Assembly (NCBI GenBank): GCA_012689325.1
Contig: JAAYEA010000254.1
Location: 1 to 35,525 of the forward strand
DNA length: 35,525 bases
Direction: 5' to 3'
DNA from: Chloroflexota bacterium
GTDB taxonomy: Bacteria > Chloroflexota > Anaerolineae > JAAYEA01
Below, piece by piece: positions 2,285 through 20,833 of the stretch (within the stretch, counting starts at the first letter, position 1; each line of letters begins with the position of its first letter). A program made the translations under genes and the position numbers. Below the pieces are notes generated by a model, which was not told where the DNA came from, did no database searches, and was given only the letters and a program-made list of their open reading frames with translations.

Positions 2285-4246
2285 CTATGCCCAGTTCGGC
2301 AGCGAGATCTGCGCCATGTAGTTCGACTCGTTCCAGCGCGGCGGCCGGATCGGGCGATACCGCTTGCCCGCGGGCAGCTTGGCATCGGAATGATAGATCC
2401 AGATGGACTGCTTGTCCCAGACGATCAACTCGTCCAGGCTGTCGCCGTCCAGGTCGGTGGAGGCGCAGCAGTAATCCGGGTGGCCATCGTCCGGCAGCAT
2501 CATCACGCGGCGGCCAAAGCCATCGATCAGCCCGCCCTCGCGCGGGTTCGCCGAGAGGAAGAGGTACTCCTGCCCGGAGCCGTCCCAGTTCACCGGCGTC
2601 AGCGCGCTGGCATAGGGCACCAACTCGAAGGAAGAGAGCAGCTTGCCTCGGCAGTCATAGACCGCCATGATGCCCGGATGCCCCCAGAAGGTAATCGCCG
2701 TGTATTGCAGGCCGGGCACGTCGGGGCGCACCTTGACGACGGCCAGCTTTTGCACGTGGCCGATCTTGTGCTGCGCGATCATCTCGCCCTTGGCGGTCTC
2801 GATGAGCAGCCCTTCCTCGCCGCAAGCCTGCGCCACCAGCAGCTCGTCAGGCGTGCTGGGATCAAAGTGGCCGATGGCCGTGGCGTCTTGGTGATCGCCA
2901 TAGGGCAACTCCCAGAGCATCGTGCCATCCTGGTCGAGCATGGCGTACCCGGCCATGACCTCGTCGCAGCCATCGCCATCGATATCGTAGGCGTTGGGGA
3001 AGTGCCCCGTGGTGCACTCGTAGCGCCAGAGCACGTTCAACTGGTCGTCCAGCGCCCAGACGTTGGCGTAGCGGTCCTTGAGGATGATGTTGCGAGCCCG
3101 CGGGCCGCCATCCAGGTTGCAGATATAGAGCGAGTCGCCCAGGACGCGCTCATAGGGCCGCCCGCCAGGCGCGGTGGAAAGGTGGGTGCGCGGCGTGGGC
3201 GCGGAGCGGAGCGTCTTGCCGGTGCGCCCATCGGCGATGTGGATGCGCAGGTCCATGCAATAGATCACCTCTGCGCAGCCGTCGCCGTCGATATCATAGA
3301 CCTGCACGCAGTTATCGGACATGGCCACGGGGAGGATGGTGCTCGGCTCGCCGATGCGCCACAGGATGTTGCCCTCCAGGTCGATGGCGGTGAGGCAGGT
3401 GAGCGTGCAATAGTCGGTGCCGGCCAGGTCGAAGCGCTGCGTGATCAGGATCTCGGGCTGGCCATCGCCGTTGAGGTCGCCGATGCGGATGTTGCGGTCG
3501 GTGCCAAAGCCGGGCGTGGCGATCTTTTTCCATGGCTTGGCCTGGGGCATCTTGGCGCGCAGGGCCTGTTCCTCGGCGGTCCAGGCGGCGGCGCGGGCGC
3601 TGGCGGCCTCGTTGGCGGCGCGGCTCGTCGTGGCCGCGATGCCGGCGAAGCGGGTGGGGGCCTGGGCGAAAAATCCGACCTTGCCCTGCAGATACTCGGG
3701 CTCCTCCACCTCCAGCATCTTGACACCGTCCAGGCTGACGGTGATCTTGGGCCCGACGCATTCCACGCGCAGTTTATAGTAACGGTCCACGTCGAAACGA
3801 TATCCGCGAGAGGCCAACAGCCGCTCGCTGGTGTGCTTGCGATAGATCAGGCAGAGTTGCCCTTTGGTGATGCGCGCGGCGAGGTAGCAGCGGCAGTTCT
3901 GGTAGCGCACGATCAGCCCGCAGGCGCCGTCGAAACTCAGGGGGCGCACCTCGGCCTCCAGGGCATAGTCGCCCCAGTAGCGGTCGCCGGTGATCAGCAT
4001 CGGCGGGCCGGATTGCAGCGCCACCATCGTGTGCGCCATCACGCGCCGCCCGTCTTCCTCCATCAGGCGCCAGTTGCCGCTGGCCCGCTGCGACCAGGAA
4101 TGATGGATCGTGGCCACCGTCCAGCGGCCAATCGTCCGATCCACGACGTGATACTCGCCCTCGGCGGTGGAGGGGTACTCGGAGGCCTTGCCCAACGGCA
4201 GGCCCGCAAAATCCTCGCGAAAGAGGACGACTTGGTTCAGACTCAC
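2285..4246 (-). CDS. ConA-like / FG-GAP beta-propeller protein, rhamnogalacturonan-lyase-like (paralog B)
   Basis: Also 653 residues, from a GTG start with AAGGGGGA upstream; like its neighbour it begins MSLN.VV. It aligns end to end with paralog A: the ConA-like N-terminal half (GDYALEAEVRPL, GLIVRYQNCRCYLAAR), then propeller loops GDLNGDGQPE, YDIDGDGCAE, YDIDGDGCDE and TDLDGDSLDE, ending in WNESNY and SLPNWA. The Asp-rich loops are those that bind calcium in FG-GAP/VCBS propellers. It has no export signal. The gap of about 110 bp to paralog A and about 200 bp to the binding-protein gene fits one operon. Substrate is unknown; rhamnogalacturonan-type oligosaccharides are the best guess from motif resemblance. 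Whether both copies are catalytic cannot be judged from sequence alone. Confidence 0.75.
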   Translation of the reverse strand: MSLNQVVLFREDFAGLPLGKASEYPSTAEGEYHVVDRTIGRWTVATIHHSWSQRASGNWRLMEEDGRRVMAHTMVALQSGPPMLITGDRYWGDYALEAEVRPLSFDGACGLIVRYQNCRCYLAARITKGQLCLIYRKHTSERLLASRGYRFDVDRYYKLRVECVGPKITVSLDGVKMLEVEEPEYLQGKVGFFAQAPTRFAGIAATTSRAANEAASARAAAWTAEEQALRAKMPQAKPWKKIATPGFGTDRNIRIGDLNGDGQPEILITQRFDLAGTDYCTLTCLTAIDLEGNILWRIGEPSTILPVAMSDNCVQVYDIDGDGCAEVIYCMDLRIHIADGRTGKTLRSAPTPRTHLSTAPGGRPYERVLGDSLYICNLDGGPRARNIILKDRYANVWALDDQLNVLWRYECTTGHFPNAYDIDGDGCDEVMAGYAMLDQDGTMLWELPYGDHQDATAIGHFDPSTPDELLVAQACGEEGLLIETAKGEMIAQHKIGHVQKLAVVKVRPDVPGLQYTAITFWGHPGIMAVYDCRGKLLSSFELVPYASALTPVNWDGSGQEYLFLSANPREGGLIDGFGRRVMMLPDDGHPDYCCASTDLDGDSLDELIVWDKQSIWIYHSDAKLPAGKRYRPIRPPRWNESNYMAQISLPNWA

Positions 4247-6668: not shown

Positions 6669-6696
6669 ATTATAGAACCTCAGCGAGCTTTGTCAA
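6669..6696 (-). promoter_or_regulatory. Consensus sigma-70 promoter for the left transporter operon
   Basis: On the minus strand TTGACA (6691-6696) and TATAAT (6669-6674) are separated by 16 bp. Both hexamers match the consensus exactly. Transcription would start near 6661, leaving a leader of about 145 nt before the binding-protein ATG at 6514. No riboswitch or clear operator was recognised in that leader. Confidence 0.75.
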
Positions 6697-6728: not shown

Positions 6729-8042
6729 TCAGCCCTGCTCGTCGGCGGCGCCGCCCGTGGAGGCCCGCAGCGCCCGGCGTGCCTGGGCGACCAGCAGCCC
6801 CGCGAGGGCCCACTCGCTGAGCGCCGCCGCGCCCGCCGCGCCCACCTGGCCCCAACGCGGGATGGCCAGCGCATTGACCCCGAGGCTGAGCAGCCCAACG
6901 GCCAGCATCGCCATCGTCACGCGTCGTTGCCGTTCCAGCGCGTACAAGGTGTGCCCGGCCAGCAGATAGACGAACAGCGCCGGCGCCGCGCAGATCAGCA
7001 CCCGGAACAGCAAGACCGTCGGCGCGTCGTCCGGGCCGGCGCCATACACCAGGCGGACCAGCAGCCCGGCGAGAGCGATCCCCCCCAGCGCCAGGGCCAG
7101 CCCCGCCGCCAGCATCGCCCACGCCCCCGTGCGGAAGAGCCGACGCAGCCGGTGGGCGCCCCCCTCGCTTGCTCCCAGGCGCGCCAGCTCGGGGAACAGC
7201 GCCTCCAACAGGTTGCCCGGCAACAGCCCCACCGCCTCCCAGAGCTTGTAGGCCGCGCTGTACCAGCCCGCCGCGGCCTCGCCCTGCCAGGCCCCCAAGA
7301 GCAGCAGGCCCACGCGGCTGTACGCCACGGCGATGATCCCCGTCAGGGCGAAAGGATACGAGGCCCCCAGGATGGCCCGCCAATCAGCAGTCGCCAGCCG
7401 CAGGGCCGCCAGGTCGCCCCACCGCCAGAGCGCGCCGCCATACATCAGCACGCCAATGGCGCTGGCCCCCGCCGCGACGCCCAGCACCCCGCTGACCCCC
7501 CAGCCCCCGGCCAGCGCGGCCAGCGAGCCCGCCAGCCCCAGAGCCCGCACGCAGACGTCCACCAGGGCGCTGATCTCCATGCGCTGGCGCCCGTTGACAA
7601 AGGCGCGCAGCCCGCCCTGGATCTGGTCCGGCAGCAATAGCAGGCTGCCCATCCACAACGCCTGCCGCGTCGGCTCCGGCCAGGGTCCGGCCAGCGCCGC
7701 CCCCCACACGAGAAGCGTGGCTGCCAGCGACAGCGCCAGCTTGATGGGAAGCACGCCGCTGAGCGCGTCACGCTCGCGCTGCCGGTCGTCCAGGCGGGCC
7801 ACCGCCCTGGTCAGATACATGTTCAACCCCAGGTCGGCGGCCGCGCCGACGATCCCCAACGTCGTCACGATCAGCGCGTAGCGGCCGAGCCCCGTGGCGC
7901 CCTCGTAGCGGGCCACCAGCGCGACCAGCACCAGCGAGAGCAGCCTGCTCCCCAACTGAGCCGCTAGCCGGGCCGCCGCGTTCTTGCCGACCCGCCTCGC
8001 CGCGCGGCGATCACGTGGCATTTCCATACCCCCACCGCTCAT
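6729..8042 (-). CDS. Polysaccharide flippase-like membrane protein (Wzx/MurJ-type, MOP superfamily)
   Basis: About 437 residues, almost entirely hydrophobic helices (12 or more predicted by eye), opening with RLAAQLGSRLLSLVLVALVA and G.GRYALI. This is the usual start of Polysacc_synt-type flippases: helix 1, then a G-x-YG/GRYAL element. Such proteins move lipid-linked glycans across the cytoplasmic membrane. The ATG chosen at 8042 overlaps the stop of the upstream glycosyltransferase gene by 4 nt (ATGA). Starts at 8027 (preceded by GGTGGGGG) or 8021 are also possible. It is the last gene of the nine-gene operon, which supports a role in exporting the product built by the genes above it. Confidence 0.75.
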   Translation of the reverse strand: MSGGGMEMPRDRRAARRVGKNAAARLAAQLGSRLLSLVLVALVARYEGATGLGRYALIVTTLGIVGAAADLGLNMYLTRAVARLDDRQRERDALSGVLPIKLALSLAATLLVWGAALAGPWPEPTRQALWMGSLLLLPDQIQGGLRAFVNGRQRMEISALVDVCVRALGLAGSLAALAGGWGVSGVLGVAAGASAIGVLMYGGALWRWGDLAALRLATADWRAILGASYPFALTGIIAVAYSRVGLLLLGAWQGEAAAGWYSAAYKLWEAVGLLPGNLLEALFPELARLGASEGGAHRLRRLFRTGAWAMLAAGLALALGGIALAGLLVRLVYGAGPDDAPTVLLFRVLICAAPALFVYLLAGHTLYALERQRRVTMAMLAVGLLSLGVNALAIPRWGQVGAAGAAALSEWALAGLLVAQARRALRASTGGAADEQG

Positions 8043-9901
8043 TCGCGCGGCTTGTAGATGGCATAGCCCCATCCATCGCCGCCCACCGTCGCGACCAGCG
8101 CGTAGCGCGCCTCCACGAAGCGCCAGACCGGCGCCAGGTTGTCATAGGCGGCCCGGCCCTCCTCCAGCTCCCAGAACCAGCCACGCCCGCCCGGCACGCT
8201 CCGCGGGACGATGATCAGGGCGGGTCGGGCGGCCTCCAGGCGCTGCGCGATCTCGCGCGCGTCGCCGGGCGCGGTCCGCAGCCCTGGCAGGATCGCGTCA
8301 TGCCGCAAGGGGTTGCTCCGCCCCGTCCAAAAATAGAACCCAGCCTCGTGGCCCAGGATGGCGATGGGCTCGTCGGGCAAGGTCTCGTCCACGATGTACT
8401 GCAGCAACTCGGGCCACGGCTTCCGGCGCGGCGAGCTGTCATCGTACCACACCGTGCCCCGCGGCGCCGCCCACCGCGTGTCCATGCGCGGGATATAGTC
8501 CGCCTCCCAGATCGCCCCAGCGACGCCATAGGCGACCATGGCCGCGGCGACCCATCGCCCCGCGCGGGCCCTCGCCTGGGCGCCATCGCCGCCTCCCAGC
8601 GCCCTCGGCAGCCAGTCTGCCGCCACGAACGCCAACGCCGGCGCGGCGGTGGACAGGTACATAAAGTGGAAGGTGCCGATAGGATAGAGAAAAGACCGCG
8701 CGTCGGCCAGGACGCTATAGAGGGCCAGCGTCGCCAGCGCCAGCTCGTCCCCGCTGAGGAGCTGCCGGCGGCGACAAGCCTTCAGCCATCGCACGCCCAG
8801 ATAGGCCAGCAGCGCCGCGAGGGCCAGGGTCGTGGGCGACCAAAGGGCCTGGATCGCCTCCTCGACAAAGGCGGGGCGGGAGGCGAGCATCGCGGGCACG
8901 AGCCCGGGCCGCAGCTGGTCGATCTCGCGCCAGGGGGCCAGCGCCAGGGCCAAGCCCAGCGCCGCCAGCAGCCCCGCCGCCAGTCGGCGCCCCCGCAGGG
9001 CCCGGGGCGCGGCGGCCGCCGCCAAACCGACGCCCGCCAGGAGATAGATCCCCAGGCCGCTGATGATGTAGCAGGTGGACTCGCGGGTGCCCCACGGTGG
9101 CCACTCCCGGAGCAGGATGGCACCCTGATCGTACGCCGAGTATCCCTCCCAGACGGCCGCCGAGCCAGCCTGGCGCACGAGAGGGGCCAGGCCAAGCGCG
9201 ACGGTGGCCGCGGCCGTGACCAGGTACGCCAAGAACGCCCGGCGGCCCGGCCTCCCATCCCCCGCCCGGGCGCGCATGATCCAGGCGGCCGCCAGGATGC
9301 CGCCGCCGGTCCCCAGGCTGGCCAGCGCGAACTCGGGCTTGGTGAGCGCGGCGGCGCCGGCGGCCAGCCCTGCCGCCATGGGCCACAGGAGTCCGCCGCG
9401 ACGCCCAGAGCGCAGCAGCGCCAGCGCCAGGGCAAGCCCCAGCACGCCCCCCAGCGGCACGGCGCCCGTATAGGCAAAGGTGTACCCGACGAGCCCGCCC
9501 CACCAGCCGCCCAGCGCGAGCGCCAAGGTGGCCAGCAGGGCCAGCGCGGGCGAGAGCAGGGACCGCGCCACGGCGTAGGTCAGGAGGCACCCCAGGGCGG
9601 CCAGCCCATGGCAGAGCAGTAGCAGGCTGCCGACATGGACGCCCAGCGCGCGGAAAAGCCCCGCCAGCAGATGGACGGGCAACGGGCCGTACATCCAGAG
9701 GACATCCCGGTAGAGGGCCTCGCCTGCCGCCACCCGCGCGGCGACCTGCATATACCAGCCCTGATCCAGGATCGGGTCGTAGAGCCGCCCCCAGGTGAGG
9801 GCGCTCCACAGCGCGCAGGCGCCCGCCAGCACGGCGCCCCCTGCCAGGTCGGGCCAGGCAAGGGAGAAGCGCCCGGGGGCAGCCGGCCGCGGCGCGCTCA
9901 T
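8039..9901 (-). CDS. GT39-like polytopic membrane glycosyltransferase
   Basis: 620 residues with many hydrophobic helices. The first extracytoplasmic loop carries DPILDQGWYMQVAARV and LYRDV-x(2)-MYGPLP, the acidic/aromatic pattern of polyprenyl-phosphate-sugar-dependent glycosyltransferases (GT-C fold, PMT/ArnT-like). In these families an Asp/Glu in this loop is catalytic. The C-terminal 130 residues form a soluble part (PRMDTRWAAPRGTVW, EPIAILGHEAGFYFWTGR). The ATG at 9901 overlaps the stop of the gene upstream in an ATGA, and its own stop overlaps the flippase start in the same way. It likely transfers a sugar from a lipid-phosphate donor to a lipid, glycan or protein acceptor outside the membrane; donor and acceptor are unknown. 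Confidence 0.75.
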   Translation of the reverse strand: MSAPRPAAPGRFSLAWPDLAGGAVLAGACALWSALTWGRLYDPILDQGWYMQVAARVAAGEALYRDVLWMYGPLPVHLLAGLFRALGVHVGSLLLLCHGLAALGCLLTYAVARSLLSPALALLATLALALGGWWGGLVGYTFAYTGAVPLGGVLGLALALALLRSGRRGGLLWPMAAGLAAGAAALTKPEFALASLGTGGGILAAAWIMRARAGDGRPGRRAFLAYLVTAAATVALGLAPLVRQAGSAAVWEGYSAYDQGAILLREWPPWGTRESTCYIISGLGIYLLAGVGLAAAAAPRALRGRRLAAGLLAALGLALALAPWREIDQLRPGLVPAMLASRPAFVEEAIQALWSPTTLALAALLAYLGVRWLKACRRRQLLSGDELALATLALYSVLADARSFLYPIGTFHFMYLSTAAPALAFVAADWLPRALGGGDGAQARARAGRWVAAAMVAYGVAGAIWEADYIPRMDTRWAAPRGTVWYDDSSPRRKPWPELLQYIVDETLPDEPIAILGHEAGFYFWTGRSNPLRHDAILPGLRTAPGDAREIAQRLEAARPALIIVPRSVPGGRGWFWELEEGRAAYDNLAPVWRFVEARYALVATVGGDGWGYAIYKPRE

Positions 9902-11346
9902 CGGCTCTCCGCAAGCAACGCTAAAAAGTCGAACCGCTGCTCAAAGATCTCCTGGTCCCAGCGCAGCCCGCGGGCTCGCCAGATGCGGACCTCTCTGCTC
10001 GCGCCGCGCGCGGCGTAGCGCCGCACCTCCGGCCCTTCGACGCGCTCGTAGGCCTCGGCCAGCCGGGCCGAGACGAACTCGGCGGGCAGGTACGGCTGGC
10101 TTATGATCGCCGCCTCGTCCAACGCGGGGAGGCCCCAGATGCGGTATTGGCCCGCGGAGGTGTAGGCGGGGCGGCCGGCATAGTACCAGATCTGCCCGGC
10201 GAGGCTATAGTCCAGGGCAAAGATCGGCGTGGGGATATCGGCCAGGGCGGCGCCCAGCTCGGGCCAGCCGGCCGCCTCCTGCCAGATCGCCGGGGCCACG
10301 CTGCTGCGCGGCCAGCGGGATGGGCCCGCGAGGCCGATCGCCGTCCCCGCGCCGTACAGCGCGGCCAACAGCGCCAGCCCCGCGAGGACCGCCGTCCCCA
10401 GGCGCCCCCGTCGCTCCTGCCAGGCCCCGCTCAGGCGCGCGCCCGCCAGGATCAAGAGCAGCGCCAGGCCGTCGGCCAGGTTTCGGGGGCTATTGGCCGG
10501 GCTGACCGCCACCGGCGCCAGCAGCAGGAGCGCCGCCAGCGTCAGCAGCCTTTCGCCGGGGGTCTTGATCCGCCTCAGGCCGGCCAACGCCGCCACGGCC
10601 AGCGGCCAGGTCAGGTAGACCAGTGCATGATGGGCGTTGCCCAGGAGGCTGTACGCACCGCCCACGCTCGTGACCATGTGGGAGAGTTGGAAGCGAAAGG
10701 AGGCCCAGCCGTGGGCGGCGTTCCAGCCGATCACCGGCAACAGCCCCAAGCCGCCGATCAGCACGGCGAGCCAGAAGCGGCGCTGGCCCAGCAGCCGCCG
10801 GTGATCCAGCAGCACCGCGGCGCCCAGGGCGGCAGCGTAGAAATAGGCGCTGTACTTCGAGTTGAACAGGAGAGCCAGGCTGACCCCAAACCAGATGGCG
10901 CTCCCCAGCCGTGGCGGATCCTCGCCGGCCAGCCGCCAGAAGGCGAGCAGGTTCAGCAACATCAGCGCCAGGTGCAGCCCGTTGGTATAGACCAGCCGGG
11001 AGGTGATCAAGTACGGCGCGCCGACCGCTAGCAGCGCTGCGGCACAAAGCCCCGCTCGCTCCGAGAGCATCCGCCGCCCCACCAGGTAGGCCAGGGCGAC
11101 GGCGCCCACGCCCAGCAGGGCGTTGAGCCAGCGCACGCCCCACTCGCTGGCGCCGCCCAGCGCCGTGCTGGCGCGGACCAACAGGGCGATGCCCGCCGGG
11201 TGGTCGTAATAGGCCCAGTCGGGGTGCTGCGACCAGAGCCAATAATAGGCCTCGTCGCCGATGAGGGGCAGCGCCCCCAGCCCCGCCAGGCGCAGCAACG
11301 CCGCCACCATGAGGATGCCGATCAGCCCCCACCGCGCGCGGCTCAT
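9898..11346 (-). CDS. GT39/PMT-like membrane glycosyltransferase with GDEAYYW motif
   Basis: 482 residues from ATG 11346, which overlaps the preceding stop as ATGA; a longer in-frame reading upstream would be antisense-like low-quality sequence and is rejected. The N-terminus is a membrane helix followed by LIGDEAYYWLWSQHPDWAYYDHPAG. GDEAYYW with a following YYDHPP-type element is the signature of dolichol/undecaprenyl-phosphate-mannose-type transferases (PMT_2 domain), in which the Asp-Glu is catalytic. Multiple helices follow, then a C-terminal soluble segment (FALDYSLAGQIWYYAGRP, AYERVEGPEVRRYAARG) of the kind that contacts the acceptor or donor in ArnT relatives. Two GT-C enzymes side by side suggest sequential sugar additions to the same product. 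Confidence 0.8.
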   Translation of the reverse strand: MSRARWGLIGILMVAALLRLAGLGALPLIGDEAYYWLWSQHPDWAYYDHPAGIALLVRASTALGGASEWGVRWLNALLGVGAVALAYLVGRRMLSERAGLCAAALLAVGAPYLITSRLVYTNGLHLALMLLNLLAFWRLAGEDPPRLGSAIWFGVSLALLFNSKYSAYFYAAALGAAVLLDHRRLLGQRRFWLAVLIGGLGLLPVIGWNAAHGWASFRFQLSHMVTSVGGAYSLLGNAHHALVYLTWPLAVAALAGLRRIKTPGERLLTLAALLLLAPVAVSPANSPRNLADGLALLLILAGARLSGAWQERRGRLGTAVLAGLALLAALYGAGTAIGLAGPSRWPRSSVAPAIWQEAAGWPELGAALADIPTPIFALDYSLAGQIWYYAGRPAYTSAGQYRIWGLPALDEAAIISQPYLPAEFVSARLAEAYERVEGPEVRRYAARGASREVRIWRARGLRWDQEIFEQRFDFLALLAESR

Positions 11347-12179
11347 GGGATCGCCTCCACCCGCACGACGTAACGGTACTGCTCCAGCGGCGGGTCGAGC
11401 TCGAGGTCGATCCCCGACCAGGAGAGGTAAAAGATGCCGGTCCAGCGGTACTGGTTGTAACGCTCCCGCCCCACGTATTTGGGCCGGCCCGGCTCGGTCT
11501 GGACGCAAAAGCGCAGCGCCCCGTCCCGATGCACCCAGCAGCCGAAAGCGTCCTCCGTGGCGTGCCAGATGCCGAGCTCGTCGCCATGCCGGAGGCGGCC
11601 GTCGGCATCCTGATAAACCTGAAAGTTGATGGCGCCCTGCTCGTTCATCAGGTAGGCTTGCTCCCAATCCACCTGCAAGCCGCTCAGGTCCACGGCGATC
11701 TCGATCTCGGAGCCGCGCAGGGTGTAGCGGAACGTGACCACGCCCAGCGACGGCACGTCCTCGTACTTGACGCGCCAAAAGCGCGTGGGCCGGTCGGCGG
11801 TGTCTATGGCGAAGGTCTTGACCAGCGTGACCGCGCCGGCTTCCCGGACCAGCGAGGTGGTGGCGTGGCGGGAGAGGTAAGGGACGCCGCCGGCCTGGAT
11901 GATGGGCGCGCCAAAGCCAAAGCTCTCCTCGGCCACTTCCTTGCCCCGATAGACCAGGATCAGCCCCTTTTGCAGGGAGGCGATCTTGCCGATATGGGGG
12001 CGGGTGTCGGCGTAGAGCCGCAGCACCAGCTCGCCAGATAGCGGCACGGTCAGCGGCGCGGGCTTGGGGCGCAGCAGGTCATCCAGGTACAGCACCAAGT
12101 GGGGATCGAACCGCTCCTTGACCGCCGCCAGCAACAGCAGGACCGCCAGCAGGGCCAGCGCCACCCGTCGCCGCTTCAT
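11343..12179 (-). CDS. Membrane-anchored protein of unknown function in the glycan operon
   Basis: 278 residues. The N-terminus (MKRRRVALALLAVLLLLAAV) is a signal anchor or uncleaved signal peptide; there is no lipobox. The rest is soluble and looks beta-rich, with many aromatic residues (FWRVKYEDVPSLGVVTFRYT, YRWTGIFYLSWSGIDLEL). No family was recognised. Translation is coupled on both sides: its ATG overlaps the stop of the FG-GAP lipoprotein gene, and its stop overlaps the start of the GDEAYYW glycosyltransferase. The domain would lie outside the membrane, where the glycosyltransferases act, so a role in binding or presenting the glycan or its acceptor is possible but unproven. Confidence 0.65.
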   Translation of the reverse strand: MKRRRVALALLAVLLLLAAVKERFDPHLVLYLDDLLRPKPAPLTVPLSGELVLRLYADTRPHIGKIASLQKGLILVYRGKEVAEESFGFGAPIIQAGGVPYLSRHATTSLVREAGAVTLVKTFAIDTADRPTRFWRVKYEDVPSLGVVTFRYTLRGSEIEIAVDLSGLQVDWEQAYLMNEQGAINFQVYQDADGRLRHGDELGIWHATEDAFGCWVHRDGALRFCVQTEPGRPKYVGRERYNQYRWTGIFYLSWSGIDLELDPPLEQYRYVVRVEAIP

Positions 12180-13507
12180 GGCATCGCTCCCCCCCGCGCC
12201 TCGTCGCGATGGAACATGGGCCAGGGGCTCGCGCCCAGCGGGCCGACATCGCGCAGGAGGTGGATGCCGTTATCGGCGCCCACCACAATGTCCGCGCGGC
12301 CATCGCCCTCCAGGTCGCCGACCCAGGGCGAGGAAAAGACGGGCGCGCCCAGGTCATAAGGGAACCCCGGCAGGGCCTGTCCCGCCGCCGTCCAGCCGTA
12401 AAGATGCCTGTCCTTGGAGCCCACCACGATATCGAGCTGGCCGTCGCCGTCCAGGTCCGCCAGGGCCGCGGACGAGATGATCTGGTCACCCACCTGGATC
12501 GGCCAGCCGGGGAGAGGCTGCCCCGCGTCGTCCCAGAGGTACATGCGCCCATCCCAGGCGCCCACGGCGATCTCCAGCCGGCCATCGCCGTCCAGGTCGG
12601 CCACCGCCGGGGAGGCCTCGATGGAGTGGATGTTCCCGCCGGGCGGGTGCGGGGTCGGCGTGGGCCCGGTGACCGCGCCCAGGGAGCGCACCGGAAAGCC
12701 GTCGCGCGGGCGGCCGTCTCGGCCCACCACGTGGAGCCAGCCGGCGTCGTCGCCAAAGACGAGCCAGCGCGCGCCGTCGCCATCGAAATCGGCCAGCGCC
12801 GGGGACGAGTCCGAGTCCGCTTCAAGCTCCACGGGAAACCCGGGGAGCTGCGTCCCTGCCTCGTTCCAGGCATAGGCCCAGCCCTGCGAGGGGTCGCCGG
12901 GCGTCAGCGCGGTGACGGCAAGCAGCCCCGGCGCGTGGGCCGCCGTGGCGTCTGGCCAGCCCAGCATGGGCTGCGGCCAGCCCGCCACCGGGCGGCCTCG
13001 CGCATCCAGCAGGTGCATCTGGTCCAATCCGCCGATGGCGATGCGCGGGCCATCGAGGATGGTCGGCGAGGCCCAGATCATGTAGCCCAGATCCACGGGA
13101 AAGCCCTCCGCGTCACGGCCATCGTGGCGCCAGGCGAACAGCTTGCCCGCATCCGAGCCGGCGACGATCTCGGGTCGCCCATCGCCGTCCAGGTCGGCCA
13201 GCGCCGCGGAAGGAAAGAAGCCCCTCCGGCTATAGATGGGCCACCCGGGCAAATCCTCCAGTTGGTCGTCCAGCAGGTAAAAGTAGCCGTCCCACGAGCC
13301 GACGGCGATCTCTGGTCGGCCATCGCCGTTCGCGTCGAAAACCAGCGGGGACGAGATCACCGGCTTGGAGGTAGGTCGAAAGAGGTGGCCCTCGTCCAGC
13401 CGCTCCGGCGGCCGCGCCGCCGCCCGGCAGCCCACCAGCAACAGCGCCGCTGCCAGCGCGACGCGTCCCAGCGCCCCGCCTCGCCCCCGCGCCCTAACGG
13501 CTGCCAT
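12176..13507 (-). CDS. FG-GAP/VCBS beta-propeller lipoprotein
   Basis: 443 residues with a signal peptide ending in LLLVGC (Cys27), a lipobox. The mature part contains six to seven repeats of the form 'SSPL.FDANGDGRPEIAVGS.DG..Y..D', clearest at FDANGDGRPE, ADLDGDGRPE, ADFDGDG, ADLDGDGRLE, ADLDGDGQLD and GDLEGDGRAD. The D-x-(D/N)-G-D-G loops are the calcium sites of integrin-type propellers, so a seven-bladed, calcium-stabilised surface propeller is predicted. The ATG at 13507 overlaps the upstream methyltransferase gene by 14 nt. Propellers of this type bind glycans or proteins, or serve as scaffolds; catalysis is not implied. It differs from the ConA-fused propellers at 213-4246. Confidence 0.85.
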   Translation of the reverse strand: MAAVRARGRGGALGRVALAAALLLVGCRAAARPPERLDEGHLFRPTSKPVISSPLVFDANGDGRPEIAVGSWDGYFYLLDDQLEDLPGWPIYSRRGFFPSAALADLDGDGRPEIVAGSDAGKLFAWRHDGRDAEGFPVDLGYMIWASPTILDGPRIAIGGLDQMHLLDARGRPVAGWPQPMLGWPDATAAHAPGLLAVTALTPGDPSQGWAYAWNEAGTQLPGFPVELEADSDSSPALADFDGDGARWLVFGDDAGWLHVVGRDGRPRDGFPVRSLGAVTGPTPTPHPPGGNIHSIEASPAVADLDGDGRLEIAVGAWDGRMYLWDDAGQPLPGWPIQVGDQIISSAALADLDGDGQLDIVVGSKDRHLYGWTAAGQALPGFPYDLGAPVFSSPWVGDLEGDGRADIVVGADNGIHLLRDVGPLGASPWPMFHRDEARGGAMP

Positions 13508-14372
13508 CGCGCTCCGCCACCACCAAGGGAAAGGAGAACGGCTCGCTCCCCTTGATCAGCACCTTGGCCTGGCGCAACCACCAGCGCGGGCCGCGCGTCA
13601 CCCTGAGCCAGCTCGCCCGCAGCCCGGCGCCCGCCAGCGCCGCCGCCAGCTCGCGGCGCCCCAGGTGCCGGTCGCCGCGGCCGGTGCCGGGGAGCGGCTC
13701 GCGCGCGATGGGCGTGTCCATGACGACGAGCCAGCCGCCCGCCTTGAGGGCGGCCGCGCCGCGCCGGAGCGTCGCTTCGAGGTCCCCGGCATAGTGCAGG
13801 CTGGCGTTATAAACAATCAGGTCGAACCTCCCTTCGGCCAGGGGCGGCCGCTCCAAGTCGCCCAGCACGGGGAGAAACGCCGCGCGAGGCAGGTAATGGC
13901 GAGCCGCGGCTCCCAGCCCGAAATCCTGGTCCCGGCTGGACTCTACCGCCACCACCCGGCCGCCGAGCTGGGACAGCCGGTGGCTTAACCAGCCTGTCCC
14001 CGCCCCCAGGTCGGCGACACATGCGCCTACCAGGGCCGCCCTTTGGGCCAGCGCCCGCCACAGCGCGCGACAGCTCTGGCGGCGGACCTCCCAATAGAGC
14101 GCGGGATAGCCCGCCGGGCGCCCCTCGGGCAAGGCCCAAGCCTCCTCCGCGGTCATGGGCTGCCAGCCGTCGCGCAGCCGCGCCTCGCGGTAGCCTTGGG
14201 CCAACTCGTCAAAGCGGCGGAGCTCTGCCGGCGGCAGGCAGGCCACCAGGCCATCCGACAGGGGATAGCGGCGGCCGCACGGCGCACAACCTAGCCCCTC
14301 CTCGACCGCTTGCAGGGCGCCCCCGCAAGCCGGGCAGGCGAGCAACTCCATCCACTCCCCCAGCGCGATCAC
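13494..14372 (-). CDS. SAM-dependent methyltransferase with N-terminal zinc ribbon
   Basis: About 292 residues from GTG 14372, which overlaps the previous stop (GTGA); ATG 14351 is an alternative start with GGGGGAG close by. Residues 8-45 form a Trm112-like zinc ribbon with Cys pairs C13-x2-C16 and C29-x2-C32 (LLACPACGGAL, LGCAPCGRRYPL). The Rossmann methyltransferase domain follows, with motif I DLGAGTGWLS at about 121-130, an acidic residue after the next strand (VVAVESSRD), and motif IV-like FDLIVYNASLHY. This is the class-I architecture of many glycan or small-molecule methyltransferases with a built-in ribbon. Substrate unknown; operon context suggests a sugar or lipid intermediate. Confidence 0.85.
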   Translation of the reverse strand: MIALGEWMELLACPACGGALQAVEEGLGCAPCGRRYPLSDGLVACLPPAELRRFDELAQGYREARLRDGWQPMTAEEAWALPEGRPAGYPALYWEVRRQSCRALWRALAQRAALVGACVADLGAGTGWLSHRLSQLGGRVVAVESSRDQDFGLGAAARHYLPRAAFLPVLGDLERPPLAEGRFDLIVYNASLHYAGDLEATLRRGAAALKAGGWLVVMDTPIAREPLPGTGRGDRHLGRRELAAALAGAGLRASWLRVTRGPRWWLRQAKVLIKGSEPFSFPLVVAERDGSR

Positions 14373-15205
14373 GGCGCCGCCTCCGTGCGCACCAGGACCA
14401 TGGCAAAGTGGTCGCCCAAGCCGCGGAACGGCGCGCGGACCCTCAGCCGGCCATCGAGCGCCTCCAGCCGGGCAAAGAGGCGGCCCCGCCGCTCCAGCAG
14501 CGGGCTCAGGTAGGGAGGGGGCAGCGCCACGGGCAAGCCCATGGTCCATTTGGCGGCAAAGCACGGGGCCATGGCCCGCGCAAAGGCCCCCGGGCTGTAA
14601 TAGCGCACCGGCACGGCCAGGGAGCCCTGCGGCGACGCCAGCCCGGCCGGTCGCCAGCCGGGGCGCGCCCGCCGAAAGGCCTCCCGCGGCCGCAGGTGCA
14701 CCAGGCTCCAGCCGATCTCCCACAGGCACCACCGGTTCATCACGGAGCAGACCAGGGGCGCCCCCGGCGGCAATAGCCGCGCCAGGGCGCGGGCCACCGG
14801 CCTCAGGTCCGGCTCGCAGTTCAGCGCGCCAAAACTAGAGTAGGCGCCGTCAAAGCGATCTCCTCCTTCGTCCGCCAGCTCCGCCAGCCGGCCCGCCGGC
14901 AACGCCCGCCAGCTCACCGGCGGCGCGCCTGGCGGCTGTGGCTTGGCCTGCGCCGTCTGGATCATCGCGGGCGAGACGTCCGTGGCCACGATGCGATAGC
15001 CGGCCGCGGCCAGGGCCAGGGCCTCCTCGCCGGTGCCGCAGCCGACCTCCAGCAGGCGGCTGCCGGGCCGAAGGGCGCTCATCAGCAGCGCCAGGCTCTC
15101 CCCCCGCATCCAGGCCATGATGCGGTTGGTCCCGTAGAGGCGGTCATAGCTCCCGGCGGCCTCGTCGAAGGCCGACGCGACCGCCTCGTAATAGTCTGGG
15201 GTCAA
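14369..15205 (-). CDS. Class I SAM-dependent methyltransferase (TTG start)
   Basis: About 278 residues. The start is taken as TTG at 15205: it overlaps the radical SAM stop as TTGA and has GAGGGGG six bases upstream, and the protein then begins TPDYYEAVASAFDEAAGSYDRLYG, the normal N-terminus of Methyltransf_11-type enzymes. The longer reading from 15448 runs into the radical SAM gene. Motif I is LLEVGCGTGEE (about 51-61), followed by IVATDVSPAMI (acidic SAM-ribose contact) and FDGAYSSFGALNC. The C-terminal part (YYSPGAFARAM) is typical of this group. It is the first of two adjacent but dissimilar methyltransferases, suggesting two different methylation steps on the product. Confidence 0.85.
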   Translation of the reverse strand: MTPDYYEAVASAFDEAAGSYDRLYGTNRIMAWMRGESLALLMSALRPGSRLLEVGCGTGEEALALAAAGYRIVATDVSPAMIQTAQAKPQPPGAPPVSWRALPAGRLAELADEGGDRFDGAYSSFGALNCEPDLRPVARALARLLPPGAPLVCSVMNRWCLWEIGWSLVHLRPREAFRRARPGWRPAGLASPQGSLAVPVRYYSPGAFARAMAPCFAAKWTMGLPVALPPPYLSPLLERRGRLFARLEALDGRLRVRAPFRGLGDHFAMVLVRTEAAP

Positions 15206-16653
15206 CTGGCCCCCCTCGCCGCCGCCTGCGGGGCCCGCGCAGGAGCTCGACGCAAGAGCTCGGCCATGCCGCGGGCCAGCCAGAGCGCCAGACGCTGGCG
15301 CACCCTGACCACCAGCGGCGCCTGCTCCTCGCCGTGCCGGAGCCGCGCGGCGCGCCACTCCTGATAGAGCCAGCGCTGCACCCAGCGGTAAAAGCGCGTC
15401 GAGTAATCCCGCTGGAAGAGCAGCCGGTTCTCGGCGGTATAGTCCCAATCCGGCGCATCCAGCAGCCGGTGCCGGATCTCTTCATAGAACTCGGTCCCCG
15501 GCAGCGGGTAAGCGATGGTGGAGCTGAACTGGGTGGGACGCGTATCACGCAATAGCCGCACGGTGGTCCGGATATCGGCCCATTCCTCCCCGGGGTAGCC
15601 GAGCATGATGTAGAAATAGGTCTCGATGCCATAGCGGCGGCAGAGCTCGGCGGCCTGGCGGATCTGCTCCACCTTGGTGCCCTTGTTCATGGCGTCCAGC
15701 ACCTTTTGCGAGCCCGACTCGGCGCCCAGGGCGATGCGCACGCACCCCGCCTCCTTGAGCAGCCGCACCATCTCTTCGTCCAGCAGGTCCACCCGCGAAA
15801 GGCACTCGAAGGGGATGGCGGCCTCGCGCGCCAGGATGGCGTCACGCCAGGCGCGGACCCAGCGCCGGTCGATGCCGGTCACATCGTCCACCACCCTAAG
15901 CTGATCCGGGTGATACTGCGCCTTGAGCAGCGCCATCTCGTCGGCGACGGACTTGGGAGAGCGGGGCCGGAAGCTGCGCCCAAAGACGCTCTTTTGGCAC
16001 CACTTGCAGCCATAGGGGCAGCCGCGGCTGGCGATGATCGAGAGGGAGAAATAGCCGTGGCGGCCGACCCAGGCTCGCCGATAGGCTTCGATGTCGATCA
16101 GGTCGCGCGCGGGCAAAGGCAGCGTATCCAGTTGGCGGCAGTGCGCCCGCGGCGGCGTGCGGACCGCCTCGCCCGCCTCGTTGACGTAGGCCAGCCCCGC
16201 CACCTCCCGCAAGGCGCCCCGATCGCCGCCCAGCAGGATCGGCAGCACCTCCAGAAGCGTCGCTTCCCCCTCGCCGATGACCGCAAGGTCCACCGGCCGC
16301 TCGCCGTTCGCCTCGTGCAGCACATAGCTCTCCGGCCGGCCTGTGGGATCGGCCCCGCCGACGATGACGATGGCCCCGTAGTGGTGGGCTGCCTCCGCGA
16401 GGCGGAGCGCCGAGGCGCGCACGGTGGCCAGCACCGAGATGCCCACCACCTTGGGCCGCTCCCGCTCCAGCGCGGCGACGAAATCCTCGCTGCCCGTCCG
16501 GAACATGGCATCAAAGATCGAGACGGCATATCCCGCCTGGCGAGCCGTGGCAGCCAGGTAGAGGAGGCCTAGCGGAAAGTAGGGCGTCATCAGACGGTGT
16601 TCCGTGGGATCCTCGTGCAAAAACAGGGGATTAACCAGCATGATGTCGGTCAC
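15202..16653 (-). CDS. B12-binding-domain radical SAM protein
   Basis: 483 residues from GTG 16653, with AAAGGAGG ten bases upstream; ATG 16641 lies too far from it. An N-terminal cobalamin-binding-like Rossmann domain (IMLVNPLF, YFPLGLLYLAATARQAGY, VGISVLAT, IVIVGGADPTGR, VDLAVIGEGEATLLEVL) is followed by the radical SAM barrel with the [4Fe-4S] motif SRGCPYGCKWC (Cys212, Cys216, Cys219) and GAESGSQKVLDAMNKG plus YIMLGYPGE. The C-terminus is basic. Enzymes of this class carry out methylations or rearrangements on lipids and secondary metabolites; the true cobalamin requirement cannot be proven here because the canonical DxHxxG loop is not evident. It is translationally coupled to the methyltransferase downstream. 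Confidence 0.88.
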   Translation of the reverse strand: MTDIMLVNPLFLHEDPTEHRLMTPYFPLGLLYLAATARQAGYAVSIFDAMFRTGSEDFVAALERERPKVVGISVLATVRASALRLAEAAHHYGAIVIVGGADPTGRPESYVLHEANGERPVDLAVIGEGEATLLEVLPILLGGDRGALREVAGLAYVNEAGEAVRTPPRAHCRQLDTLPLPARDLIDIEAYRRAWVGRHGYFSLSIIASRGCPYGCKWCQKSVFGRSFRPRSPKSVADEMALLKAQYHPDQLRVVDDVTGIDRRWVRAWRDAILAREAAIPFECLSRVDLLDEEMVRLLKEAGCVRIALGAESGSQKVLDAMNKGTKVEQIRQAAELCRRYGIETYFYIMLGYPGEEWADIRTTVRLLRDTRPTQFSSTIAYPLPGTEFYEEIRHRLLDAPDWDYTAENRLLFQRDYSTRFYRWVQRWLYQEWRAARLRHGEEQAPLVVRVRQRLALWLARGMAELLRRAPARAPQAAARGAS

Positions 16654-16761
16654 TCGGGCGCTTCCTCCTTTGTATTGTCCCCACGCCAAACACGCTGCCA
16701 CTCGCAGGCCCACCGAGTCGCGCGATCCACAGGGCCGCGTTCCGCCGTACTGCGTGTTCCA

Positions 16762-17754
16762 TCATCCATGAGGGGCCTCTCCCGCTGGCAGGCCGTGGGC
16801 GGCCAGGGCTTCGGCGAACCGCTGGAGGATCTTGGCGCCGTGATCGCCCATGTGCCCCTTGCAGATATCCGGCGTGAAGAGGGCGCCCGCCCCGCCGCGC
16901 GCCGCCGCCTCTTGCGTGAGCCGCGGGATCTTGCGCCGTTGCTCCCACTCCTCCAACCCATCGCCCGGACGCCAGCTGAGCGCCGCCTCCAGGACCCGCT
17001 TGCTGGAGCGGAGCAAGGCCCCCATCTCGGGCTCGCCCTCGCCATGGGCCCCCGCGTTGGGGAGATAGTGGGCGACCCAGTGGTTGATCGCCAGGATGCG
17101 GCGATAGAGATCCCAGCCATAGAGGGGAACCAGTTGCGCCAGCTCGTGGGCGGTAAAGAGGCTCGGCGGGCCGAAATCCAGGACATGGTCAGCGAGGACA
17201 TAATTGGGACAGAGGGTAACGCCCAACTGCCGAACGGCCCGCACCAGCAGGACCGCTTGCCCGCGGACCAGCCACACGCGGCCCTTCTGGCTGACGATGA
17301 GGAGGTCGATGTCGTCTTGGGCGCTGCTGGGGTTGTTCACGGCGAGGGCGCCGGTCACGGCGACCATCTTGACGAAGGGCAGCGCCGCGATGAGGTGGGC
17401 ATAGCGCCGGGCCGAGGCCCACAGCGCGGCGGCGGAGCTCTCGCGCTGCCGCCGCACCGCCACCAGATGGTCGCGCCCGGCCAGGAACCAGAAGGGCGCC
17501 GCCGCGCCCAACCTCACGCCGAGGCGGCGATCGTGAGCGAGACACCCTTCGACCTCTGCCAGCGTCGCGCTCCAGCCAGGCAGAAACCGATGGATCTCGG
17601 GCGCTTTTAGCGGATAGTCAAAGAGATCAGCATAGACAATCGCCTGGAGGATCGCGACCGCCAGACCGTTAGCTCTGCTGCAGGGCCAGGGCAGGGGCGC
17701 CGTTCCCGGCTCGTACGCTGAACAAGCCGGTTCCCGGGATGCACGAACAACCAT
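16762..17754 (-). CDS. Nucleotidyltransferase-fold protein, first gene of the glycan operon
   Basis: About 330 residues from ATG 17754 (AGGTGG eight bases upstream; GTG 17766 is possible). AILQAIVYADLFDYPLKAPE near the start looks like a small helical domain. The central VTGALAVNNPS followed by DDIDLLIV (Asp147, Asp148, Asp150) is the G-S/A...DxD pattern of the pol-beta nucleotidyltransferase superfamily, in which the aspartates bind metal. The usual 'GS' is 'GA' here. The C-terminal half is helical. No exact function can be given: NMP transfer to a small molecule or protein is the family norm. It is first after a good promoter, with a gap of about 108 bp before the radical SAM gene. Confidence 0.7.
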   Translation of the reverse strand: MVVRASREPACSAYEPGTAPLPWPCSRANGLAVAILQAIVYADLFDYPLKAPEIHRFLPGWSATLAEVEGCLAHDRRLGVRLGAAAPFWFLAGRDHLVAVRRQRESSAAALWASARRYAHLIAALPFVKMVAVTGALAVNNPSSAQDDIDLLIVSQKGRVWLVRGQAVLLVRAVRQLGVTLCPNYVLADHVLDFGPPSLFTAHELAQLVPLYGWDLYRRILAINHWVAHYLPNAGAHGEGEPEMGALLRSSKRVLEAALSWRPGDGLEEWEQRRKIPRLTQEAAARGGAGALFTPDICKGHMGDHGAKILQRFAEALAAHGLPAGEAPHG

Positions 17755-17832: not shown

Positions 17833-17861
17833 ATTGTACTATGGAGAGATGGGGCTGTCAA
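17833..17861 (-). promoter_or_regulatory. Near-consensus sigma-70 promoter of the nine-gene glycan operon
   Basis: On the minus strand TTGACA (17856-17861) and TACAAT (17833-17838) are separated by 17 bp, one mismatch from consensus in total. Predicted start near 17826, about 70 nt before the first gene. This separates the glycan operon from the riboflavin transporter genes upstream, whose last stop is at 17911. Confidence 0.7.
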
Positions 17862-17910: not shown

Positions 17911-18666
17911 TCAACGCAGCGTGTCGCGCAACTGGTGTACCAACTGGATAAACCGCGCCGTGTAAAGGTCCTCCTGGCGGCGCGGGCGCGGCAGGTCGAT
18001 CTCGAGCGCGCACTCGATGCGGCCAGGGCGAGGGCTCATGGTCAGCACGCGGTCGCCCAACAGGACCGCCTCCTGGATGTCGTGCGTGACCATCACCACG
18101 GTCTTGCGGTCCATCTCCCAGAGGCGCAACAGCTCGTAGCTCATCCGCTCCCGCGTGAGGGCATCCAGCGCCCCAAAGGGCTCATCCAAGAGGAGGATGT
18201 CGGGGTCGTAAATGAGGGCGCGGGCCAGGGCGACCCGCTGCCGCATTCCGCCCGATAGCTCGCGCGGCAGGGCGTTGGCAAAGCCCGTCAGCCCCACCAG
18301 ATCGAGCATCTCCTGCGCCTTGCCCTCGCTGACAGCGCGAGGCGTGCCCTGGAGCTCCAGCGGCAGAGCCAGGTTCTGCAACGCGGTGCGCCAGGGCATC
18401 AGGTTGGCGTGCTGAGCGACGAAACCGATCCTCGCCTGCGGGCCCTGCAACGGCTCGCCGTCCAGCAACACGGCGCCGCCGGTGGGGCGCACCAGCCCGC
18501 CCAGGATCCGCAGCAGCGTGGACTTGCCGCATCCTGATGGCCCGAGGATGCACACGAACTCGTTGGGCCGCACCTCAAAGCTGGCCTCGGCGAGCGCCTC
18601 CAGCGAGCTATCGGGCGAGTTGAACATCATTTGCACTTTTCGGGCCACCAAGATCGGCTTGTCCAT
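17911..18666 (-). CDS. ABC transporter ATP-binding protein of the riboflavin uptake system
   Basis: 251 residues. Walker A GPSGCGKST (42-50), Q-loop VAQHANLMPW, signature LSGGMRQRVALARAL, Walker B DILLLDEPFGALD and H-loop VMVTHDIQEAV are all present, so it should be active. The sequence belongs to the SsuB/TauB/ThiZ-like subfamily that partners NMT1/THI5-like binding proteins. The start ATG at 18666 has a weak AAGG upstream and lies 21 bp from the binding-protein stop. It is the third gene of the FMN-riboswitch operon and energises riboflavin import by context. Confidence 0.88.
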   Translation of the reverse strand: MDKPILVARKVQMMFNSPDSSLEALAEASFEVRPNEFVCILGPSGCGKSTLLRILGGLVRPTGGAVLLDGEPLQGPQARIGFVAQHANLMPWRTALQNLALPLELQGTPRAVSEGKAQEMLDLVGLTGFANALPRELSGGMRQRVALARALIYDPDILLLDEPFGALDALTRERMSYELLRLWEMDRKTVVMVTHDIQEAVLLGDRVLTMSPRPGRIECALEIDLPRPRRQEDLYTARFIQLVHQLRDTLR

Positions 18667-18687
18667 GTTCTGCCTTGGGGTGAGCGG

Positions 18688-19692
18688 CTACTTGATAAAG
18701 CGGTTGGTGTACAGGTCACCCGGCTTGACCTCGTTGGCGATCAGCCCCAGCTCTTTGAGCAAAGCGGCGCTCTCCGCCCAGGCGGCGGGGTCGCTGGCGC
18801 CCAGCGGGTCGCTGCGCCAAAAGTTGATGGCCTCGTCCAGCACGGCGCGCTGCAGCTTGGCGGTCGGCTCGTCCATCTCGGGGATCGCCTTGCGCGCGAT
18901 AGCAAAGGCCGCCTCTGGCTCAGCGATGGTGTCTTGCAAGCCCCGCAAAAAGGCGCGCACCGCCTTTTCCACCAGCTCGGGCTGCTTTTCGATGGTCTCG
19001 TCGTTGGTGATCAGCCCATTGGAGACGAGCTGGGTATAGCGATCCAAGTAAAAGACGTTGAGCTGGTAGCCTGCCGCGGCCATCTGCACCGGCTCATTGA
19101 GGGCGTAACAGATAGCCGCGTCCACGCGCTTTTCCGCCAGGCTGGCCGTCTGCGTGTAGCCGATGACCTGGAGGTCGATATTGGCGGAGGACAGGCCCAC
19201 CTCATCCAGGAAGGCCAGCCAGCCGATGTAGCTGGCGCCCGAGAGCGCGGGGGTGCCCACGGTCTTGCCGGCGAGCTGCGCGGGCTCGGTGATGCCCTTT
19301 TCCGCCAGGGAGACCACGCACACCGGGAAGCGCCGATACCAGTTGAGCACATAGCGGACGGGCAGCCCGTTGGCCCGCGCCAGCACCACCTGATCGCCGC
19401 TGCCGATGGCGAACTGCAGGTCGTTGGTCGCCAGTCGCTGCAAGAGGTCGGTCTCCATGCCGTAATCCAGCGTGACCTTGAGCCCTTCGGCCTCGAAATA
19501 GCCCCGCTCCAGCGCCACGTACATGGGCGTGAACTGGACGTTGGGGATGAAGCCCATGGCGATGGTAACCTCGCGAGGCGACTCGTCAGCGCCGCGGTTC
19601 GCGCCCTGGCAGGCGCTCAGCACAAGCAGGAGAGCCAGCGCCAAGGCCAGCAGCCTGGCTCCCATGGTCGATCGCGTTCCAGACAGATTCAT
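18688..19692 (-). CDS. ribY: Riboflavin-binding lipoprotein of ABC transporter (RibY-like, NMT1/THI5 family)
   Basis: 334 residues from ATG 19692 with GGAGGAGGT directly upstream; the longer reading to 19725 lacks a ribosome site. The signal peptide ends LLVLSAC (Cys28), a lipobox. The mature part opens EVTIAMGFIPNVQFTPMYVA and continues ALERGYFEAEGLKV and LDYGMETDLLQRLATNDLQF, the usual opening of NMT1/THI5-like binding proteins. These are often annotated as thiamine-precursor or taurine/sulfonate binders, but the FMN riboswitch upstream of the operon points to riboflavin, matching the RibXY systems described for Chloroflexi. Placement between permease and ATPase fits a complete importer. 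Confidence 0.82.
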   Translation of the reverse strand: MNLSGTRSTMGARLLALALALLLVLSACQGANRGADESPREVTIAMGFIPNVQFTPMYVALERGYFEAEGLKVTLDYGMETDLLQRLATNDLQFAIGSGDQVVLARANGLPVRYVLNWYRRFPVCVVSLAEKGITEPAQLAGKTVGTPALSGASYIGWLAFLDEVGLSSANIDLQVIGYTQTASLAEKRVDAAICYALNEPVQMAAAGYQLNVFYLDRYTQLVSNGLITNDETIEKQPELVEKAVRAFLRGLQDTIAEPEAAFAIARKAIPEMDEPTAKLQRAVLDEAINFWRSDPLGASDPAAWAESAALLKELGLIANEVKPGDLYTNRFIK

Positions 19693-19764
19693 CCTATACC
19701 TCCTCCACCAATCCCGGCTGGCCATGCGGCGGCGCGCTCCCCGAAAACGACCCCGCCCTGCCAG

Positions 19765-20589
19765 CTAGCGGCCCTGCTCGTTGCGGCGCCACCAAAGCGC
19801 CCATCGTTCCAGCGCCGATACCGCCGCGTACAGAGCCAGCGCGATGAACATCAGGGTGAACAGGGCCACGAACATCAGCGGCGTATCAAAGAGGCCGCGG
19901 GCCAGGTTGACCAAAAAGCCCAGCCCCCGATCGGCGCCCACGAACTCGCCCACCACGGCCCCGATCACCGATAGGGTCACGCCGACCTTGAGGCCGCCGA
20001 AAAGCGTGGGCAGCGCCGAAGGCACCTCCAGCAGCCAGAAGGTCTGCCAGCGCGAGGCCCGCAACGAGCGCATCAGCTCCACCAGGTCGCGGTCGATGCT
20101 CCGAAGGCCCACCATGGTGTTGATCAACACCGGGAAAAAGAGGGTCAGCGCGCAGACCAGCACCTTGGAAAGGCTTCCCGCGCCGAACCAGATCACCAAG
20201 AGGGGCGCCAGCGCGACGATGGGGATGGCCTGGGAGGCGACGATATAGACGGAGAGGAGGCGCTCCAGCAGAGGGGATTTGGCCAGGGCGTAGCCCAGCA
20301 CCAGCGCCACGCTCAGCCCCAGGGCCAGCCCCGCAAAGACCTCGCGCAGGGTGACCCAGGTATGGATCAGCAGCGAGCCCTCGCTCAGGGCCATCCAGAA
20401 GCGCTCCAGGACCTGGCGCGGGCCGGGGAGCAGAAAGGTCGGGTAGCGCCCCGCGGTGACGAGCAGGCCCCACAGGGCCACCATCACCACGACGCTCAGC
20501 ACGATGCTCAGGCCCTTTTGCGTGGCCTGCAGCCGGTAGTGGTTTCTGGTCGCGTTCGGTATGGACTGTCTGTCGCCGTTCTTGAGCAT
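19765..20589 (-). CDS. ribX: Riboflavin ABC transporter permease (RibX-like)
   Basis: 274 residues with about six membrane helices and the permease EAA-type loop (LVELMRSLRASRWQTFWLLEVPSALPTLFGGLKVG), as in SsuC/TauC/ThiX-type permeases. The ATG at 20589 has no Shine-Dalgarno sequence: the bases before it are the U-tract of an intrinsic terminator. A downstream start (GTG just before the first helix, with AAAGGG upstream) is possible but would shorten the cytoplasmic N-terminus. It is the first gene of the three-gene operon under FMN riboswitch control and forms the channel for riboflavin. Confidence 0.85.
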   Translation of the reverse strand: MLKNGDRQSIPNATRNHYRLQATQKGLSIVLSVVVMVALWGLLVTAGRYPTFLLPGPRQVLERFWMALSEGSLLIHTWVTLREVFAGLALGLSVALVLGYALAKSPLLERLLSVYIVASQAIPIVALAPLLVIWFGAGSLSKVLVCALTLFFPVLINTMVGLRSIDRDLVELMRSLRASRWQTFWLLEVPSALPTLFGGLKVGVTLSVIGAVVGEFVGADRGLGFLVNLARGLFDTPLMFVALFTLMFIALALYAAVSALERWALWWRRNEQGR

Positions 20590-20590
20590 G

Positions 20591-20624
20591 AAAAAAAGCC
20601 CCGCGCAGGAATCGCTTCGGGGCC
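20591..20624 (-). terminator. Riboswitch-controlled intrinsic terminator
   Basis: In minus-strand RNA, GCCCCG (20618-20623) pairs with CGGGGC (20598-20603) around a 14-nt loop and is followed by seven U (20591-20597), ending one base before the ribX ATG. The 5' arm with its flank (20615-20623, GCCCCGAAG in RNA) is exactly complementary to the first strand of the FMN aptamer (20806-20814, CUUCGGGGC), giving a nine-pair antiterminator. This is the expected off-switch when FMN is bound. Confidence 0.8.
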
Positions 20625-20666
20625 TGGGAATAGGCGTGCGCCAATCAGGCAGGGAGACCCTGCTTG

Positions 20667-20815: not shown

Positions 20816-20833
20816 CTTGTTGATCTGCATTGG

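Follow-up and report, generated by a model that had tools for sequence, protein, structure and literature searches.

The nine-gene operon described here probably serves to build a chemically modified glycan for the cell surface, a reading that builds on its gene content, overlapping junctions, conservation and adjoining glycan genes. It lies on the minus strand of the window, the whole 35,525-nt stretch of DNA analysed, which is one contig of a 5.3-Mb Chloroflexota genome of 97% completeness. Other families and classes show the same gene content and order again, which puts the arrangement beyond chance.

Operon structure and encoded proteins

An earlier note had read positions 17754-6729 as a nine-gene, tightly coupled operon, and ORF calls and translation confirmed all nine ORFs on the minus strand. 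A recount of the junctions agreed with it as well: seven of the eight overlap, six by 4 nt (four ATGA, one TTGA, one GTGA) and one, g4/g5, by 14 nt. The sole non-overlapping junction is g1/g2, with a 108-nt gap; AAAGGAGG stands ahead of the GTG start of g2. The genes and candidate promoters are as follows.

g1, 16762..17754, minus strand: nucleotidyltransferase-like protein, 330 aa, unnamed family
g2, 15202..16653, minus strand: cobalamin-binding (class B) radical SAM enzyme, 483 aa, start GTG
g3, 14369..15205, minus strand: class I SAM-dependent methyltransferase, the usual partner of g2, start TTG
g4, 13494..14372, minus strand: class I methyltransferase with N-terminal Trm112-like zinc ribbon, start GTG
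g5, 12176..13507, minus strand: FG-GAP beta-propeller lipoprotein, lipobox LLVGC
g6, 11343..12179, minus strand: unnamed family, N-terminal TM helix and beta-rich domain of ~250 aa
g7, 9898..11346, minus strand: GT39-like (PMT_2) GT-C glycosyltransferase
g8, 8039..9901, minus strand: multi-TM, GT-C-like protein without a named family
g9, 6729..8042, minus strand: Wzx/MurJ-type polysaccharide flippase
17833..17861, minus strand: sigma-70-like promoter TTGACA-17-TACAAT ahead of g1, consensus match only
6669..6696, minus strand: perfect sigma-70-like promoter TTGACA-16-TATAAT just past g9, consensus match only

These two sigma-70-like sites compare with 0.6 expected. The site at 6669-6696 probably belongs to the next gene and suggests the position of the operon's 3' boundary; with candidate promoters before g1 and after g9, a single transcription unit within the boundaries of the earlier note fits.

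The radical SAM enzyme, the two methyltransferases, the propeller and the flippase named in that note agree with the Pfam domains of g2, g3/g4, g5 and g9. In g2, both Radical_SAM (E 1.9e-27) and B12-binding (E 4.2e-19) domains are found by Pfam, and the radical SAM core, the CX3CX2C motif (C212, C216 and C219, invariant in alignments) and the N-terminal position of the B12-binding domain place it in class B. Against the curated NCBIfam equivalogs, however, every score falls far under its cut-off: the top model is BchE (168 bits), the second ApyD, and other top models are HpnJ (126.5 bits against a cut-off of 577.6) and further B12 radical SAM enzymes of lipid biosynthesis. Sequence search of the PDB gave AprD4 as the nearest solved relative, with OxsB and the methyltransferase TokK also among the best matches. 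AprD4 is a sugar-acting radical SAM enzyme, and neither it nor OxsB is known to methylate. The CX3CX2C motif and the B12-binding domain are shared with the B12 radical SAM enzymes BchE, HpnJ, HpnR, TIGR04295, OxsB and TokK and the related AprD4, but g2 falls in a separate Anaerolineae group that is tied to g1 and g3 and scores below equivalog level. The methyl-modified product that had been proposed is still likely, but g2 fits no functional equivalog and its closest solved structure is that of AprD4.

In g1, the motif TGaLxxxN...DDxD, an N-terminal YADxFxYP and a C-terminal CKGH are conserved. G135 and D148/D150 are invariant, and their spacing roughly fits the pattern hG[GS]x9-13Dh[DE]h, though g1 has no family match. 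This hG[AST]...DhD-like motif may relate it to DNA polymerase beta-type nucleotidyltransferases (MNT/ANT-like), from which it differs in lacking a family match and in carrying the additional YADxFxYP and CKGH motifs. Neither g1 nor its relatives match any Pfam or NCBIfam model even at relaxed E-values, and the PDB search gave no significant match for g1; an MNT protein aligned over the motif region at a non-significant E of 1.9. A structure model of g1 was unusable (pLDDT 40). Pfam places both g3 and g4 among the class I methyltransferases and identifies the N-terminal domain of g4 as a Trm112p zinc ribbon.

The remaining five genes encode surface and membrane proteins. Pfam assigns g5 to FG-GAP, and its translation has an N-terminal lipobox, LLVGC. 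A single N-terminal TM helix is followed in g6 by the beta-rich domain, which probably lies outside the cell; g6 and its relatives have no Pfam or NCBIfam match, relaxed thresholds included. Like that of g1, the structure model of g6 (pLDDT 63) was built on a shallow alignment of two rows, the window sequence and that of the Caldilineales MAG SKYG74. Foldseek ranks mutarotases and LacZ highest for it (E 5e-5 to 1e-3, TM ~0.4), so that a galactose-mutarotase-like fold may be taken as a lead only. The same model gave no informatively named match among viral structures. Within the PMT_2/GT39-like enzymes, which include TIGR03663 (Agl23), g7 scores 76.5 bits against the Pfam gathering cut-off of 26.1 for PMT_2. 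It differs from Agl23 in matching TIGR03663 weakly (41.7 bits, under the cut-off of 126.25), for which reason we rejected that assignment, and in being paired with the unnamed g6 domain. For g8, which has no Pfam or NCBIfam match, hydropathy and a motif suggest a GT-C-like protein, and g7 is therefore the only family-backed GT-C enzyme of the two that had been claimed. The flippase g9 matches Polysacc_synt with 75 bits (Pfam cut-off 28.2). Because g1, g6 and g8 are without a family, we infer their roles.

Recurrence of the operon and its modules

That the synteny might be confined to this genome is refuted by seven more genomes of the Anaerolineae, spread over three families besides that of the window, which share g1, g2, g5, g6, g7, g9 and a methyltransferase; a check of conserved synteny thus finds the operon in four families, that of the window included. 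In all, the g6 profile hit eight of the 396 genomes of the class (families f1, f20, f36 and f50). At the g6 loci, g2, g5, g6, g7, g9 and a g3-type methyltransferase lie within ~12 kb, accompanied by g1; one locus lacks g1 and g2 because the contig ends there. A first scan of genome contigs with g6 gave no match, and the scan with g2 returned the SKYG74 locus (JANWYQ010000208.1) and a Phaeodactylibacter locus of the form radical SAM-methyltransferase-radical SAM. The SKYG74 locus has largely the same gene order as the window, and its propeller is 71% identical to g5 over 420 aa. Since SKYG74 and most other carriers fall in the class of the window, the organism is most likely a member of the Anaerolineae group of Chloroflexota.

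Two orders can be distinguished. In the window and SKYG74, g3 and g4 lie between the radical SAM gene and the propeller, and the g1 of SKYG74 is convergent at the far end of its locus. The remaining two families have g3 at the end, and g4 was not seen there; five of their six loci carry a Wzy_C ligase/polymerase between the flippase and g3, and at the Wzy_C position of the sixth (L029) the gene caller gave only opposite-strand ORFs. Near-constancy is limited to g2 and g3 and does not extend to g4 or g8. Homologues of g4 occur at L012, L103 and L104. Among homologous g6 loci, g8 was found in the window only, and we rejected it as a conserved part of the operon; its distant homologues lie in four genomes, without other operon genes in the stretches checked.

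Across the class, the g2 profile separates three score tiers. The first (>840 bits) comprises the g6 loci, the second (698-732 bits) falls in families f10, f16, f33, f38, f45 and f57, and the third (<460 bits) consists of more distant paralogues; in the radical SAM tree the first two form one group (support 99/99). In seven of the eight second-tier loci the order is g1-g2-g3-propeller; where coverage is better, genes for a GT4 and for a Wzy_C protein that includes an NBR1-Ig-like domain come next. Wzy_C with an NBR1-type Ig-like domain is encoded at L096:6437-8320, L098:7356-9089 and L099:13046-14929, and the propellers adjoining these three genes have no obvious signal peptide as read from their sequences. 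Besides g1 and g3, and in some cases g4, many third-tier loci have as many as three or four radical SAM genes, with Wzy_C, GT2, GT4 or flippase genes as neighbours. At the Anaerolineae loci L107, L108 and L109, three to four radical SAM genes cluster with g1 and g3; in L109, a single-contig genome, the cluster sits beside Wzy_C, GT2, GT4 and flippase genes.

The association is also visible from the side of g1. Of 120 genomes of the class, 23, representing 15 families, have a single copy of g1, and in 18 of these 23 a radical SAM gene lies no more than 1.5 kb away. Among the exceptions, the radical SAM gene of SKYG74 is at a greater distance within the locus, and another locus is truncated by the end of its contig. 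Across 21 loci, the distance matrices of g1, g2 and g3 are correlated (r 0.58, 0.53 and 0.78; permutation p 0.0005), which partly reflects shared species ancestry. Since g1 loci often contain Wzx, Wzy_C and GT2/GT4 genes, their context is that of surface polysaccharide assembly. In Phaeodactylibacter (Bacteroidota), L025:2075-6875 has a g3-like methyltransferase gene between two radical SAM genes, beside an FkbM methyltransferase; the module is therefore partly present outside Chloroflexota.

Outside the class, the g6 profile found 20 genomes, all of a single family in the same phylum. There, the g6 domain forms the C terminus of a protein of ~1270-1470 aa that carries a GT2 at its N terminus and has a middle part that reads as GT-C-like from its sequence, and a B12 radical SAM gene follows this fusion in 19 of 19 loci. 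The inspected loci encode a further protein after the radical SAM enzyme, in one case with a match to the PQQ/BamB propeller family; neither a flippase nor a homologue of g3 could be detected at these loci. In two classes, then, g6 is associated by fusion or neighbourhood with both a GT-C-like enzyme and a B12 radical SAM enzyme.

Proposed pathway and competing explanations

We infer every catalytic step, and the product, from protein families and gene neighbourhoods. In the cytoplasm, g1 would activate or tag a sugar precursor, on which g2 would carry out a B12/radical-SAM reaction, be it C-methylation or another carbon change, and to which g3 and g4 would add methyl groups. The lipid-linked unit would be flipped by g9. 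Outside, polyprenyl-phosphate donors would supply the sugars that g7 and perhaps g8 attach, with the membrane-anchored and possibly sugar-binding g6 assisting the GT-C enzymes. A Wzy_C ligase/polymerase, in the operon in relatives and elsewhere in the genome here, would polymerise or attach the product, and the lipoprotein propeller g5 may bind or display it. The flipping step is not universal, as no flippase was detected at the loci of the other class.

How does this compare with known polysaccharide loci? Like the Wzx/Wzy loci for capsule, O-antigen and EPS, the operon has a Polysacc_synt flippase, g9 being of the Wzx type, and homologous loci add Wzy_C, GT2 and GT4. Unlike them, its nine genes include, by Pfam, neither a Wzy polymerase or Wzy_C ligase nor a cytosolic glycosyltransferase, and they add a GT39-like enzyme, a second, GT-C-like protein, g6 and the radical SAM/methyltransferase module; nor did Pfam find an initiating phosphoglycosyl transferase in the operon. 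Lacking an in-operon Wzy and cytosolic glycosyltransferases, the window operon was not classed as a Wzx/Wzy member. Partly from the missing polymerase, the earlier note had concluded that a standard capsule or O-antigen cluster does not fit, an argument unsupported in that form: the module of the relatives occurs with Wzy_C, Wzx-type flippases and GT2/GT4, and Wzy_C genes lie on other contigs of the window's own genome. The glycolipid or glycoprotein that the note suggested fits no better than a Wzx/Wzy-like surface polysaccharide. Its claim that the pathway is undescribed has held up, in that literature searches of incomplete coverage found no paper on the locus or the gene combination.

The strongest competitor, though an unlikely one, is protein O-glycosylation, in which the GT-C enzymes would place the modified sugar directly on exported proteins such as g5, the radical SAM enzyme acting on the sugar or on the acceptor peptide. 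The PMT_2/GT39-like g7 belongs to the family of protein mannosyltransferases, a propeller occurs in every g6 locus of the class, and the other class combines the GT2-GT-C-g6 fusion and a radical SAM enzyme, with or without a propeller-like protein, with no flippase homologue detected. PMT_2 enzymes also serve lipid and polysaccharide pathways, however, and a flippase in every Anaerolineae g6 locus, together with Wzy_C or cytosolic glycosyltransferases at many of the wider loci, argues against direct transfer to protein.

The best-scoring models of g2, BchE, ApyD, HpnJ and the lipid-biosynthesis enzymes, instead point to a modified glycolipid or hopanoid-type lipid on which the radical SAM enzyme would act, as is the case in the part of the family around BchE, HpnJ and HpnR. 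So does a radical SAM protein in a neighbouring-type locus with a weak match to DUF3463, an HpnH domain. We consider this rather improbable: all these models score far under their equivalog cut-offs, and the neighbours are glycan genes. The hopanoid version was rejected on the HpnJ score and on the genome search for squalene-hopene cyclase, which gave no convincing candidate (the best is a PF13243 fragment of 30.9 bits over 104 positions). Still further down the scale, and very improbable, is a RiPP-like or secondary-metabolite cluster whose radical SAM enzyme and methyltransferases would modify a small peptide. RiPP clusters commonly pair B12 radical SAM enzymes with methyltransferases, both of which are present here, and ApyD is the second-best model for g2, but the flippase, GT-C and Wzy_C partners are non-RiPP genes.

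Wider meaning and neighbouring genes

A broader proposal, which we put forward tentatively, is an undescribed glycan pathway in at least two Chloroflexota classes: a B12 radical SAM enzyme, regularly accompanied by a nucleotidyltransferase-like or a GT-C/g6 partner, may equip lipid-linked sugars with a rare modification (C-methyl or deoxy carbon), and g6 may represent a new module of GT-C enzymes, accessory or catalytic. Chloroflexota are considered to be without LPS and BAM genes, and polysaccharide or protein has been suggested as the material of their outer layers (PMC13319060). The proposal, if true, would help to explain this unusual LPS-free, multilayered envelope. The chemistry and genes of these outer layers are little known, and the module supplies specific candidates. 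It links two unnamed families, g1 and g6, to B12 radical SAM enzymes, and it suggests a regular role for radical-SAM chemistry in the way Chloroflexota assemble their surface glycans.

Finally, the window holds several other features. Directly upstream of the operon, 17911-20820 on the minus strand looks like a riboflavin-type ABC uptake unit; an FMN riboswitch (RF00050, 90.5 bits; 20662-20820, minus strand) precedes its ABC permease, NMT1-like binding protein and ATPase. Upstream of this unit, at 20897-23326 on the minus strand, lies a gene for a large PMT_2-like GT-C protein (809 aa, 30.7 bits). At 213-4246 on the minus strand, two genes in tandem each encode a 653-aa protein with matches to FG-GAP and a rhamnogalacturonan-lyase-11 C-terminal domain, and ORFs of similar length also lie on the opposite strand there.
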